From NCBI RefSeq assembly GCF_902729405.1, contig NZ_LR746496.1:3844001-3908000 (forward strand): DNA of 64,000 bases, read 5' to 3'. Shown piece after piece: positions 23,123 through 31,142 of the stretch. A program made the translations under genes and the position numbers. The notes beneath the pieces were generated by a model. The model made no database searches. It was not told the DNA's origin and saw only the letters and a program-made list of their open reading frames with translations. The stretch's first letter is position 1, and each line of letters starts with the position of its first letter. The DNA comes from Acididesulfobacillus acetoxydans (GTDB lineage Bacteria; Bacillota; Desulfitobacteriia; Desulfitobacteriales; Desulfitobacteriaceae).

Positions 23123-23152
23123 GTTGCTTTAGGACTTTAGTCCTAAAGCAAC
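23123..23152. repeat. 14 bp perfect inverted repeat at the ftsQ start
   Basis: GTTGCTTTAGGACT and its exact complement are separated by two bases, ending right at the first possible ftsQ codon. It has no T-run and lies outside the usual terminator position, so it may be an operator or an mRNA structure at the start of ftsQ. Confidence 0.75.
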
Positions 23153-24842: not shown

Positions 24843-25832
24843 TTATCTTCTGCCGCCTTCCGCTCCCAGATAACGAACCTCCGTCTCCAGCCGGATGCCG
24901 AACTTTTGCCATACATCTGCGCGAATATCTTCGATCAGACACAGGACGTCGGTCGCCGTCGCTTCCCCGGTATTGACGATAAAATTGCTATGTTTTTCGG
25001 ACACCTTGGCTCCGCCGCATCTTTTTCCTTTCCAGCCGCTCTGCTCAATTAGCCGGGCGGCGTAATCCCCGGGCGGATTGCGGAAGACACTGCCCGCGTT
25101 GGCTTCAGCCAGAGGCTGAGCGGCCGCCCGCTTGCGCAGGCCTTCGCTCATGCGCGCCAGAATCCGCTCCCGCTCACCCGGCCCAAAAGAAAGTTCGGCA
25201 GCCAAGACCAGGGGCCGGAGGCTCAGCTTTCCTCCCTTTCCCGGAGGTCCGGCCGCAGGCTCCGGCGCTGTCGGGGGATCGACAGAGAGCGCCGCCTCGA
25301 CTCCGCACACGCTTTCGTCCTGAAAGGAGCTGGTACGGTACCCGAACTTCAGCCTTTCCCTGTTGAGAAGTCGGACTTCACCGTCACACCAAACCTTGAC
25401 GTTCTTGATTCCGCCTGCCATGTCTTCACCATAGGCCCCGGCATTCATGACCACGGCTCCTCCGACTGTCCCGGGAATTCCCCCGGCAAACTCCAGTCCC
25501 GACCAGCCGCGTTCACCGGCTTCCCGGGCCAGCTTCGCCAGAGAATACCCCGCTTCCACCCAAACCGAATGTTCCCCCCACAGGATCCGCCTTAGTTCGG
25601 TGGTTACGACCGTGATTCCCGCCAAACCCCGATCAGGCGCCAGCAGATTTGAACCCCGGCCGATGATCCGGAAATCCTGTCCTTGACTAAGGGCCTCCCG
25701 GACAGCCGCAACCAATTCCTCCGCACTCTCCGGCCAGCAGACATATTCAGCCGGCCCGCCGATCTTCCAAGTCGTTAAATTCTTCAGTGGGTAATTGTGC
25801 TCCACTCTGCCTTTGAACCCGTCTAACACCAT
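24843..25832 (-). CDS. murB: UDP-N-acetylenolpyruvoylglucosamine reductase
   Basis: This FAD enzyme makes UDP-MurNAc from the MurA product. At 329 residues it is longer than the common 300, because of a proline/glycine-rich insert at about residues 180-205 (TAPEPAAGPPGKGGK). The FAD-binding motif IIGRGSNLLAPDRGL, GGIPGTVGGAVVMNAGAYG, and the serine proton donor in NAGSVFRNPPGDYAARLIE are intact. Its start overlaps the Mur-ligase-like gene by 86 bases, so translation is tightly coupled, or its true start is further in. Confidence 0.95.
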   Translation of the reverse strand: MVLDGFKGRVEHNYPLKNLTTWKIGGPAEYVCWPESAEELVAAVREALSQGQDFRIIGRGSNLLAPDRGLAGITVVTTELRRILWGEHSVWVEAGYSLAKLAREAGERGWSGLEFAGGIPGTVGGAVVMNAGAYGEDMAGGIKNVKVWCDGEVRLLNRERLKFGYRTSSFQDESVCGVEAALSVDPPTAPEPAAGPPGKGGKLSLRPLVLAAELSFGPGERERILARMSEGLRKRAAAQPLAEANAGSVFRNPPGDYAARLIEQSGWKGKRCGGAKVSEKHSNFIVNTGEATATDVLCLIEDIRADVWQKFGIRLETEVRYLGAEGGRR

Positions 25833-26709
25833 CCGGTTGACTCCCCTCAGTTTCAGTTCTCCAAGCGGCCGAAGGTCTCAACTCCTTGAACGCGAGCAGT
25901 TGCTCACCCGGCCACAGCGATTGCAAAGCCTGCCGAACATCCGCCCAAGCAACCCCGAGTCCCAAGGCCTGAGCGATACTCCCGCACGCCTCCGTTTCTT
26001 CCCCCGGCTCCGGCCAACGCGGCAAAGCGCCAAGATACCTCCCTTTCCCGGGCACTCCGGAAGCGGCGTAGAAATCCACCCTATCCGGGCGCACCACCCA
26101 TGACACGGGTTCCTTGGGCCCTTCTCTGCCTAAACGCCTCTCCCCCGCCATCTCCCGCAGCCAGACCCCGGGCACAATCCAACCGAGACCGGGAGCCTTT
26201 TCCCCGTACCAGACTCCATCGCTGTCCAGCCAGAGCAGGGAAGGGGCGAAGCCGGCTTCCCGCAAAATTACCCACAGCAAGGGCTTGCCCCCGATCCCGA
26301 CCAAAGGCGGGAACACCGGCAGAAGAACTTCGTCCTGCCAAATCTCCGCCAAAAACTCCTCCGGAGACAGAGACCGCATGCCGGGAATCCGTACCCGCTC
26401 TGCTGCCTCCCCACTCACTCCCGGCCAGACGATCAAATCCGTGCACACCCCCGGCGGCATTTCAGCACACGGCCCTTCCCCGCCGGGCACTTCCCGGTTA
26501 GGTACTTGTCCGTCCCGCACTTCCCGATCAGGTAGTTCTCCGCGCCGATCGGCATACCAAAAACTATCTTTTCCGTTATGTATTCGAGTTCCCGGTTCCT
26601 CCACCTCATAAGGTAAACCCACAGCCTTCAACAATGCCTGAAATTCTCGCAAACCCACCGCATCCTGTACTGCCAGTAATTTAAGTTTCCGCTTCGGCCA
26701 CACACGCAC
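25747..26709 (-). CDS. Degenerate MurC-like protein (Mur-ligase fold without P-loop)
   Basis: This 320-residue protein lies exactly where murC is expected, between murG and murB. Parts resemble a Mur ligase. DLIVWPGVS (91-99) followed by PEEFLAEIWQ matches the 'SPG...RAEFLAEL' end of domain 1. PLVGIGGKPLLWVILREAGFAP (135-156) matches the P-loop region, but GTxGKT is replaced by GIGGKP. ACGSIAQALGLGVAWADVRQAL (241-262) matches the helix after NxxNALAA. The ligase core between these and the C-terminal domain is missing or reduced. A 30 bp tandem repeat codes for residues about 57-80. It cannot be an active ATP-dependent ligase by motif; a structural or regulatory role, or decay, is inferred. 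Confidence 0.65.
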   Translation of the reverse strand: MRVWPKRKLKLLAVQDAVGLREFQALLKAVGLPYEVEEPGTRIHNGKDSFWYADRRGELPDREVRDGQVPNREVPGGEGPCAEMPPGVCTDLIVWPGVSGEAAERVRIPGMRSLSPEEFLAEIWQDEVLLPVFPPLVGIGGKPLLWVILREAGFAPSLLWLDSDGVWYGEKAPGLGWIVPGVWLREMAGERRLGREGPKEPVSWVVRPDRVDFYAASGVPGKGRYLGALPRWPEPGEETEACGSIAQALGLGVAWADVRQALQSLWPGEQLLAFKELRPSAAWRTETEGSQPDGVRRVQRQSGAQLPTEEFNDLEDRRAG

Positions 26710-26769
26710 CGGCTCCTTTCCCAGACCTTTTTGACTGCCTTATGTTATGCGGCCGGGTCAAAAGGTGTG

Positions 26770-26840
26770 AAAGAGGAGACCGGAAAGAGACTGAGGAAAG
26801 ACCAAGAGAAGACCAAGCGGAAACCGAGAGAAGACGCAGA
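26770..26840. repeat. Purine-rich repeat block upstream of the MurC-like gene
   Basis: Words of the type GGAAAGAGAC, GAGGAAAGACC, AAGAGAAGACC, AGAGAAGACGC recur with roughly 11 bp spacing between the murG stop and the MurC-like start. No gene is visible. Confidence 0.5.
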
Positions 26841-26848
26841 CGCCTGCC

Positions 26849-27958
26849 TCACTTCCAGGCCGTTTCCAGGCAGAGATCTACGATCTTACTCAGAGCCTCC
26901 GGCTGGGCCAGCCCGCGTGCCGCCGCACCCATACGCCCCAGGAGAGCCCGGTCTGCCAGCAAACCCTCGACCTCCTGCCACAGCCTCTGTCCGGTTAATT
27001 CCTTGTCCAAAATCAAGCGGGCGGCTCCCGCTTCGACCAGAGCGCGGGCGTTGTACTCTTGATGGTTTTCCGCCGCAAACGGGTAGGGAATAAGGACACT
27101 CGGTTTTCCGGCTGCCATCAGCTCAGCCAGAGAGGCCGCACCTGCCCGGCTGAGGCAGAGGTCCGCCGCGGCATACGCCTGTGGCATATCTTTCAGATAT
27201 TCCAAAATTCGCCAGTTCGGACGTTCCCAGTCAATACCCCGCCGGCGTAAGCCGTCCAGAGTCTCTTGATAAGTATTGCTCCCCGTCGCCCAGATCACCT
27301 GGACTTCGGACCGCAGAGCCAGCTTCTCCAGCACCGTGAGCATCGCCTGGTTCAGCGTCCGGGCCCCCCGGCTTCCTCCCGTAACCAGAAGGGTCAGGCG
27401 CTCCGGACGCAGGGAGAAGTGTTTGGCGCCGGCGGCACGGCTTACCTTGCCAATATCGGGGCGGACCGGCAGTCCGGTTAAGACCGCCTTTCCGTCGGCC
27501 CGAAAACGCGGCAGGCTCTCGGGAAACGTTACCGTCACCCTTTTCACCACCCGGGCCAAGATCCTGTTCGTGATACCCGGCAGGGCATTCTGCTCATGCA
27601 GCAGGGTGGGAATGCCGAACATCGCAGCCGTCAGCACGACCGGCCCCGACACATACCCGCCGGTTCCCACAACCAGATCCGGCCCGAAATGGCGCAGGAT
27701 CTCCTTGGTCTGCCAAAGGGCCTGAAAACTTCGGGCTACGGTTTTCAGGCTCTCCCAGCTCATCTTCCGCGGCAGTCCCTGCCCGCTCACTCCGGAAAAT
27801 CTCCAGCCGGCCTCCGGCACCAGCTTTGCTTCCATGCCCTGACGGGTGCCTACATAAAGAATCTCACAATCCTGGACTTTATCCCTCAATCCCCGGGCAA
27901 TGGCCAGGGCCGGATAAATATGGCCCCCGGTTCCGCCGCCGGTTACGATCACACGCAA
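26849..27958 (-). CDS. murG: UDP-GlcNAc:lipid I N-acetylglucosaminyltransferase
   Basis: This membrane-associated GT28 enzyme makes lipid II. The TTG at 27958 is chosen: it starts LRVIVTGGGTGGHIYPALA, the usual N-terminus, and AAAGGAG lies about nine bases upstream. The alternative at 28000 adds 14 charged residues. The glycine loops GGTGGH (first domain) and GGSRGARTLNQ (second domain) and the UDP-GlcNAc site CLSRAGAASLAELMAAGKP are intact. It lies downstream of spoVE/ftsW. Confidence 0.96.
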   Translation of the reverse strand: MRVIVTGGGTGGHIYPALAIARGLRDKVQDCEILYVGTRQGMEAKLVPEAGWRFSGVSGQGLPRKMSWESLKTVARSFQALWQTKEILRHFGPDLVVGTGGYVSGPVVLTAAMFGIPTLLHEQNALPGITNRILARVVKRVTVTFPESLPRFRADGKAVLTGLPVRPDIGKVSRAAGAKHFSLRPERLTLLVTGGSRGARTLNQAMLTVLEKLALRSEVQVIWATGSNTYQETLDGLRRRGIDWERPNWRILEYLKDMPQAYAAADLCLSRAGAASLAELMAAGKPSVLIPYPFAAENHQEYNARALVEAGAARLILDKELTGQRLWQEVEGLLADRALLGRMGAAARGLAQPEALSKIVDLCLETAWK

Positions 27959-28000
27959 GCGAGTTCTCTCCTTTCGCCGGCTGTCCGCCGGGCAGGACAT

Positions 28001-29389: not shown

Positions 29390-30937
29390 CTATCCTTCGG
29401 CCTTCGGCCTCCGGCTTCTGACCTCTGGCTTCCGACCTCCGGCTTCTGTAACGCGGCGCTTCTCAACGCCCTCAGCTTCCTTCGCCACGTCTACTTTCTG
29501 ACCTCCGGCCTCTGTAATACCTCTTGCCTCTGACCCCCGGCCTCTGTAATGCCTACGCACTAACGCCTTAAACAATTCCCCTCTTTCCTCATAACTCTTA
29601 AACATATCCCAACTCGTACAAGCCGGAGAGAGGAGCACGACATCCCCGGCCTTGGCTTCGGCGATGGCCAGTTCCACCCCTTCCGGAAAAGAGCCGGCTT
29701 TCAGGACGCGGCCCACTCCGGCCTCCTGTGCCGCTTGCTCCATCTCGTCCGCGGCCTGCCCCAGAAGGACCAGACTTTTCACTCTCTCCCGCACCAACGT
29801 CATAAAGTCGTGGAAATCCAGACCTTTATTCTTGCCGCCGGCCAGCAGGACCAGCGGTTCCGGGAAAGCCAGGAGCGCTTTGGCAGCCGCATCCGTGTTC
29901 GTTCCTTTCGAGTCGTTGACGAAGAGGATCCCTTCGAACGTTCCCACGGTCTCCTGGCGGTGTTCAACCCCTTTAAAATTCCGCAGCCCCTCGGCGATTT
30001 GCTCCCGGGACAAGCCTAACTCCCGGGCGGCCGCGGCCGCGGCCATCACGTTCTCCAAATTGTGGCTCCCGCGCAGTTGCAGTTCACCCCGCTTGAGAAT
30101 CGGCTCAACCACCCCTTTGGCGGCAAAAACGATCATGTCTCCCCGCAGGCTGACCCCGTCCTCCAAAAAACGCGTCGGACTGAAAAACAACACCCTGGCC
30201 TTAAGCTGCGGAGCCAGGCCGCGCACGATAGGGTCATCCCAATTGAGAACCGCCAAATCCCCCTCTTCCTGGTGCGCGAAGATCTTCGCTTTAGCCGCCA
30301 GGTATTGTTCCACACTGCCGTGCCGGTCCAGGTGATCGGGAGTCAGGTTCAGCATGACGGCAATGTGCAAACGCGCCCGGTCGACAAATTCCAGCTGAAA
30401 ACTGGACAGCTCAGCCACCACAATGTCCTCTCCGCTTAACCCCACCACCTCACGGCTCAGCGCCACCCCGATGTTTCCCGCCACCACGGTCTTGCGGCCT
30501 GTCTGCTGCGCCAGTTCCCCGATCAGGGTGGTCGTGGTCGTTTTGCCGTTGGTCCCCGTCACCCCTACGCTCACAGCCGGACAGTTTCTCAAGGCTAATT
30601 CCACTTCGGACCAGACCGGAATCCGCCGGGCCAAGGCCTCCTGAATGAACCCCTGCCGGGGAGAGACCCCCGGCGAAAGCACGACGAGTTCCGGCCGCAC
30701 CTCGGTTAGATCCGGCGTTTTGCCCAGGAACATACGCTCGTCAGGCAAACCCAAAGCGGCGACTTCCGGCAATTCCCGCGCCGGCTTACGGTCTGTAATG
30801 AATACCTTAGCCCCCCGGGAAGCCAGCAGAGCCGCGGCTCCTTGCCCGCTCAGTCCTGACCCCACCACCAAGACCCGTTTGCCCTTGAAGTTCGTGCCGG
30901 AGTCTGTACCAAAGTCTGTGCTATCGATCCCGATCAT
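29390..30937 (-). CDS. murD: UDP-N-acetylmuramoyl-L-alanine:D-glutamate ligase
   Basis: This ATP-dependent enzyme adds D-Glu. From the ATG at 30937 (GGGAGG seven bases upstream) it is 515 residues, about 60 more than usual. The P-loop is GVTGTNGKTTTT, and the NLTPDHLDRHG and GVEHRQE motifs are present. The family core ends near SYEERGELFKALVRRHYRG. The remaining about 50 residues are a charged tail (RKPEV, EAGG repeats) encoded by the low-complexity repeats at 29395-29550. The tail is probably a repeat-driven read-on, not a domain. Confidence 0.95.
   Translation of the reverse strand: MIGIDSTDFGTDSGTNFKGKRVLVVGSGLSGQGAAALLASRGAKVFITDRKPARELPEVAALGLPDERMFLGKTPDLTEVRPELVVLSPGVSPRQGFIQEALARRIPVWSEVELALRNCPAVSVGVTGTNGKTTTTTLIGELAQQTGRKTVVAGNIGVALSREVVGLSGEDIVVAELSSFQLEFVDRARLHIAVMLNLTPDHLDRHGSVEQYLAAKAKIFAHQEEGDLAVLNWDDPIVRGLAPQLKARVLFFSPTRFLEDGVSLRGDMIVFAAKGVVEPILKRGELQLRGSHNLENVMAAAAAARELGLSREQIAEGLRNFKGVEHRQETVGTFEGILFVNDSKGTNTDAAAKALLAFPEPLVLLAGGKNKGLDFHDFMTLVRERVKSLVLLGQAADEMEQAAQEAGVGRVLKAGSFPEGVELAIAEAKAGDVVLLSPACTSWDMFKSYEERGELFKALVRRHYRGRGSEARGITEAGGQKVDVAKEAEGVEKRRVTEAGGRKPEVRSRRPKAEG
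29395..29550. repeat. CTCCGGCTTCTGACCTC repeat block forming the 3' end of murD
   Basis: Words like CTCCGGCTTCTG, GACCTCTGGCTTCC and GACCTCCGGC-TCTGTAA recur at least six times with 12-30 bp spacing. They begin before the murD stop and continue into the coding DNA. Related words occur at 20611-20659 and 4426-4485. Confidence 0.8.
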
Positions 30938-31142
30938 AACATGTCCTCCCGGATTCCCCTGTTCCGAGTCGCTGTCCGTTCTCTGCTTTTTCTCCATTTT
31001 CCTTCATCCCCAGTTGTCTTTTCCTGCCGGCCGTTTGGCCGCGGAATCCACAGTACTTCGTTCATCCCTCTCAGTATCTCTGCCTCCGGTATCGATGCCG
31101 CCGCGGAATTTACTGAGTCCTTCATCCAGCGCCCGCGCCTTT

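Follow-up and report, generated by a model that had tools for sequence, protein, structure and literature searches.

A conserved, probably MurC-derived pseudoenzyme encoded between murG and murB in Desulfosporosinus and its relatives

The window, the whole stretch of 64,000 nts analysed here, comes from Acididesulfobacillus acetoxydans. In it, an open reading frame of 320 codons lies on the minus strand, flanked by murG and murB and surrounded by a complete dcw-type cluster, and runs from a GTG at 26709 to a stop at 25747. The original prediction placed a 320-residue relative of the Mur ligases between murG and murB; the reading frame is real, and both neighbours are identified by Pfam. The features of the locus, in the direction of transcription, are

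26849-28000, minus strand: murG (Pfam)
26713-26719, minus strand: Shine-Dalgarno sequence AAAGGAG of the pseudoenzyme gene
25747-26709, minus strand: putative MurC-derived pseudoenzyme gene, 320 codons as listed, 318 amino acids from the likely start GTG 26703
26338-26709, minus strand: MurC domain-1-like region, in which the Gly-rich loop GxGGxGM is replaced
26461-26583, minus strand: low-confidence loop of domain 1 (pLDDT under 50), with a genus-specific repeat insert
25912-26337, minus strand: shortened MurC domain-2-like region, which lacks the P-loop, the DH motif and about 70 of the residues that form the middle domain in MurC
26281-26313, minus strand: loop that replaces the ATP P-loop and contains GIGGKP
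25747-25911, minus strand: C-terminal tail, without ligase domain 3, overlapping the murB ribosome-binding site and start
25841-25848, minus strand: murB Shine-Dalgarno sequence GAGGGGAG, within the 3' end of the pseudoenzyme gene
24843-25832, minus strand: murB (Pfam)

The in-frame GTG at 26703 is more likely to be the true start of the gene than the GTG at 26709, because the relatives begin at an ATG or GTG right before the residues V-W-P, behind AAAGGAG. Most of the inspected Desulfosporosinus relatives have AAGGAGTGAGC-(A/G)TG at this position. At the other end, the last ~28 codons overlap murB. The tail looks conserved because the murB Shine-Dalgarno sequence and ATG sit within the pseudoenzyme reading frame; these overlapping signals account for the conservation, and we reject it as a feature of the protein. 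The gap between murG and the pseudoenzyme gene includes 3.5 tandem copies of an 11-nt unit (26798-26835), which make the coding strand pyrimidine-rich there. The murB gene itself has a Pro/Gly-rich stretch, DPPTAPEPAAGPPGKGGK, and its dN/dS is 0.39 against the congener and 0.06-0.20 in other species pairs.

Single-sequence and per-member searches of the pseudoenzyme family against Pfam, NCBIfam and the PDB sequences return nothing relevant, and no homologue was found in viral contigs. Weak matches to SigZ and FANCC are at chance level and are dismissed. The resemblance to Mur ligases appears in profile comparisons, for which we use an alignment of 32 family members. With hhalign, the family profile matches MurC best (E about 6e-5, score 42.8), followed by MurD (E 6e-4); MurE and MurF are at E 0.19 or worse, and the dcw families other than MurC and MurD at 0.007 or worse. 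As controls, a reversed profile and 200 column shuffles score at most 25.5, and none of the 200 shuffles reaches 42.8. When the family HMM is run with hmmsearch against all dcw proteins, the best 25 matches are all MurC, with no MurD, MurE or MurF among them. A six-frame whole-genome scan with the family profile at E 1e-3 gives eight matches outside the family, one in the 82 genomes of the class and seven in the 398 genomes of the phylum, and all eight fall inside bona fide murC genes. By these comparisons, the protein is nearer in sequence to MurC than to the other Mur ligases.

The predicted structure agrees. Two AlphaFold models from different family members have a confident core (AF2 core pLDDT about 90). 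Searched against the PDB with Foldseek, the best 23 matches of one model and the best 25 of the other are MurC, with E-values from 2.5e-6 to 4e-6. VIA-align superposes the two models on MurC domains 1 and 2 over 210 and 216 residues with Z 11.2. A Z of about 11 for the best structural match is only moderate; we trust it because the top matches consist entirely of MurC and its close relative Mpl and because it agrees with the independent sequence evidence. The modelled protein thus keeps a MurC-like fold over domains 1 and 2, and the proposed Mur-ligase resemblance is borne out, well above chance, by profile and structure methods alike. The tandem-repeat insert that had been noticed is also real, a 30-nt unit present twice at 26475-26534; the congener has six overlapping copies at a spacing of 15 nts. 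This insert sits in a loop of domain 1 with pLDDT under 50. The structural matches stop at about MurC residue 320, in agreement with the predicted absence of the C-terminal ligase domain, and the reading frame runs about 50 residues further, mostly as a low-confidence tail in which the final 41 residues have pLDDT under 50.

MurC is the UDP-N-acetylmuramate--L-alanine ligase and is essential for the cell wall. The protein in the window resembles MurC (TIGR01082) in predicted fold, profile similarity and murG-murB position, but it lacks the elements that make MurC an enzyme. The ATP P-loop G(T/S/A)HGK(T/S), the DH motif of the middle domain and the Gly-rich UDP-diphosphate loop GxGGxGM of domain 1 are each present in 61 of 61 MurC sequences and in none of 35 pseudoenzyme members. 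The amino-acid-binding domain 3 is missing, as are about 70 residues of domain 2. Unlike MurC, the protein is also rich in Trp, and it scores below any curated cut-off: a TIGR01082 search of its own genome does not pick it up (curated cut-off 335 bits), and NCBIfam reports no MurC match. Because P-loop, DH motif, Gly-rich loop and domain 3 are lost, sequence and predicted structure together mark it as a non-catalytic protein, which would be unable to ligate L-alanine. The P-loop GTxGKT had been read as GIGGKP in this protein. GIGGKP is not its positional counterpart, since an ungapped profile alignment puts the P-loop Lys of GTHGKT four residues earlier, and a Walker A motif is absent from every member. 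The string is restricted to this genus, and relatives have IEGRP, NERP, DNEP and others in its place, so that the resemblance is, to judge from the family alignment, a coincidence of this genus.

As anticipated, murC itself is elsewhere in the genome. A TIGR01082 search of the genome finds a single full copy at 1,025,535-1,026,866. In both a close relative and one sister-family member, the neighbours of the functional murC are genes for NAD synthase, an NT5C-type 5'-nucleotidase and an AMP-binding C-terminal-domain protein. The pseudoenzyme gene is present in 43 of the 45 genomes of its family, Desulfosporosinus and relatives, and a profile scan finds it in none of the 37 genomes from the other three families of the class. 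Across the family, the orthologues occupy the murG-murB position, where the original prediction had proposed to look for them. One relative with a complete-looking genome, G013, has cleanly lost the gene, so the pseudoenzyme is dispensable at least there and is not universally essential. Another genome (G009) is without both the murG and the murB of the cluster.

The arrangement in other lineages makes the history of this slot partly readable. In 75 of 119 sampled genomes of the phylum, murC directly follows murG, and in 51 of those 75 murB comes next. The 75 include both sampled genomes of the sister order. In two sister families, murG and murB are direct neighbours, the slot is empty, and murC lies at another site. 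In a tree of MurC, the sequences of the order form one long-branched clade, separate from the slot-type MurC of the class, and AU tests reject grouping the two together (p 0.006 and 0.004). This makes a moderately strong case, at the level of gene trees, that the present murC of the order is foreign and was acquired by xenologous replacement. The displaced MurC of two distant genomes, L156 (G098) and L150 (G164), groups with that of the order at 97% SH-aLRT, and possibly represents a donor-side lineage. Placing the pseudoenzyme itself within the MurC tree is uninformative, as its sequence is too diverged: AU values are 0.55 with the slot-type MurC, 0.49 with the MurC of the order and 0.27 with other relocated MurCs. 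In three other lineages with a displaced murC (G088, G134 and G172), no relics are apparent between murG and murB in a listing of open reading frames. We propose that the murG-murB slot ancestrally held an active murC. A MurC from a different lineage, next to NAD synthase, would have taken over in the order's ancestor; by parsimony, two families would have deleted the displaced copy, and the third would have remodelled and retained it. The pseudoenzyme may then be the original murC of the slot. The earlier description of a retained, non-catalytic paralogue is right in that the protein appears non-catalytic. Its relative is specifically MurC, and it may not be a paralogue of today's MurC.

Selection on the gene bears on whether it is in decay, which the original prediction had offered as one possibility and which these results do not support. 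For the core, with the tail excluded, dN/dS (NG86) is 0.19-0.35 in seven separate species pairs, and the upper 95% bootstrap limits are all below 0.8. The core frame is open in 43 genomes of at least nine genera, at identities down to 27%, and the few stops examined are all in the tail. Among 24 pseudoenzyme sequences, 24 positions are invariant. Trp makes up 5.0% of the core vs 0.5% of MurC, about ten-fold more, and several of these Trp are invariant. The constraint is relaxed, because dN/dS is 2-5 times that of murG (0.07-0.11), and the codon comparisons indicate that it is nevertheless real and accompanied by remodelling. The opposite reading is that of a decaying murC relic without protein function, whose frame persists through young age or through translational coupling of murG and murB. 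It would fit a dN/dS above that of murG, a repeat insert in one genus and the loss of the gene in G013, and the murB ribosome-binding site inside the 3' end makes coupling plausible. It does not fit a dN/dS well below 1, a core open over such divergence, the invariant positions, a confident predicted fold or many conserved Trp codons absent from MurC, and coupling alone would not keep amino acids conserved. We consider a relic of this kind quite improbable.

A retained protein could also descend from a different copy or do a different job. It might be a later duplicate of the present MurC of the order that entered the murG-murB slot in the family's ancestor and then degenerated, a course that needs no parallel deletions in two sister families and that AU values of 0.49 against 0.55 do not separate from descent in place. 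By coincidence, such a duplicate would need to have arrived in the exact slot that murC occupies across most of the phylum, and we regard this origin as unlikely. As to the job, a sensor of UDP-MurNAc had been suggested: domain 1 would bind UDP-MurNAc or a related nucleotide sugar and signal to MurB or MurG. MurB makes UDP-MurNAc, the gene lies beside murB, and the model of domain 1 has a MurC-like fold. The suggestion is weakened by the loss of this domain's Gly-rich loop in 35 of 35 members, and the sequence offers no arguable replacement binding site; a ligand sensor seems to us very unlikely.

Taken as a whole, we find it probable that the gene encodes a conserved pseudoenzyme descended from MurC, replaced in catalysis by a foreign MurC and kept as a non-catalytic partner. 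A dead MurC whose gene lies between murG and murB and runs into the start of murB readily suggests itself as a structural partner. It would be co-translated with MurG and MurB and could dock onto MurG, or onto other enzymes of the Mur pathway, by way of a conserved Trp-rich surface, helping to keep the cytoplasmic precursor machinery together; that the conserved Trp are on the surface is our assumption. Taken by itself, a role as scaffold or partner is a tentative proposal. A fuller version, neofunctionalisation in place, in which a former MurC would have lost its catalytic elements, gained a Trp-rich surface and become a family-specific non-catalytic organiser of the MurG-MurB precursor machinery, is rather doubtful.

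Several known systems share part of this pattern. MurG binds and organises Mur ligases, and MurG-MurC and MurB-MurC fusions exist, which lends plausibility to a partner placed between MurG and MurB, although the known partners are all active enzymes (PMC6420597). In Frankia, a second-type MurC, possibly transferred, displaces the native murC (murC1/murC2), as we propose for the order; there the native gene still encodes an intact enzyme or has been lost, whereas here it would have been kept as a pseudoenzyme (PMC7231273). Plant PAP11/MurE-like, also related to the Mur ligases, acts not in wall synthesis but as a stable component of a large complex, the plastid RNA polymerase. It is a precedent for a role as complex subunit, but it is derived from MurE, belongs to plants and works in another complex (PMC9456514). 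Our model has a weak Foldseek match to a PAP11/MurE-like entry, 8r6s_Q. In the searchable literature, we find no description of a Mur-ligase pseudoenzyme of the bacterial wall pathway. The case presented here is a pseudoenzyme conserved across a family and recognised by neither Pfam nor NCBIfam, and its history can be read from outgroups with an active murC in the slot, sister families with an empty slot and a dead, remodelled copy in this family. It raises the questions of whether the Mur enzymes assemble into a physical complex for precursor synthesis that depends on non-catalytic components, and of what becomes of an essential enzyme once it is replaced from outside.

Two further features of the cluster lie outside the murG-murB region. 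The protein encoded by murD (29390-30997) continues C-terminally beyond the Mur_ligase_C domain for about 50 residues of low complexity, with VTEAGGRK-like repeats. Between murA and an ftsQ-like reading frame, just upstream of the latter, a perfect 13-bp stem with a 4-nt loop (window positions 23123-23152) is followed by a T-rich stretch.
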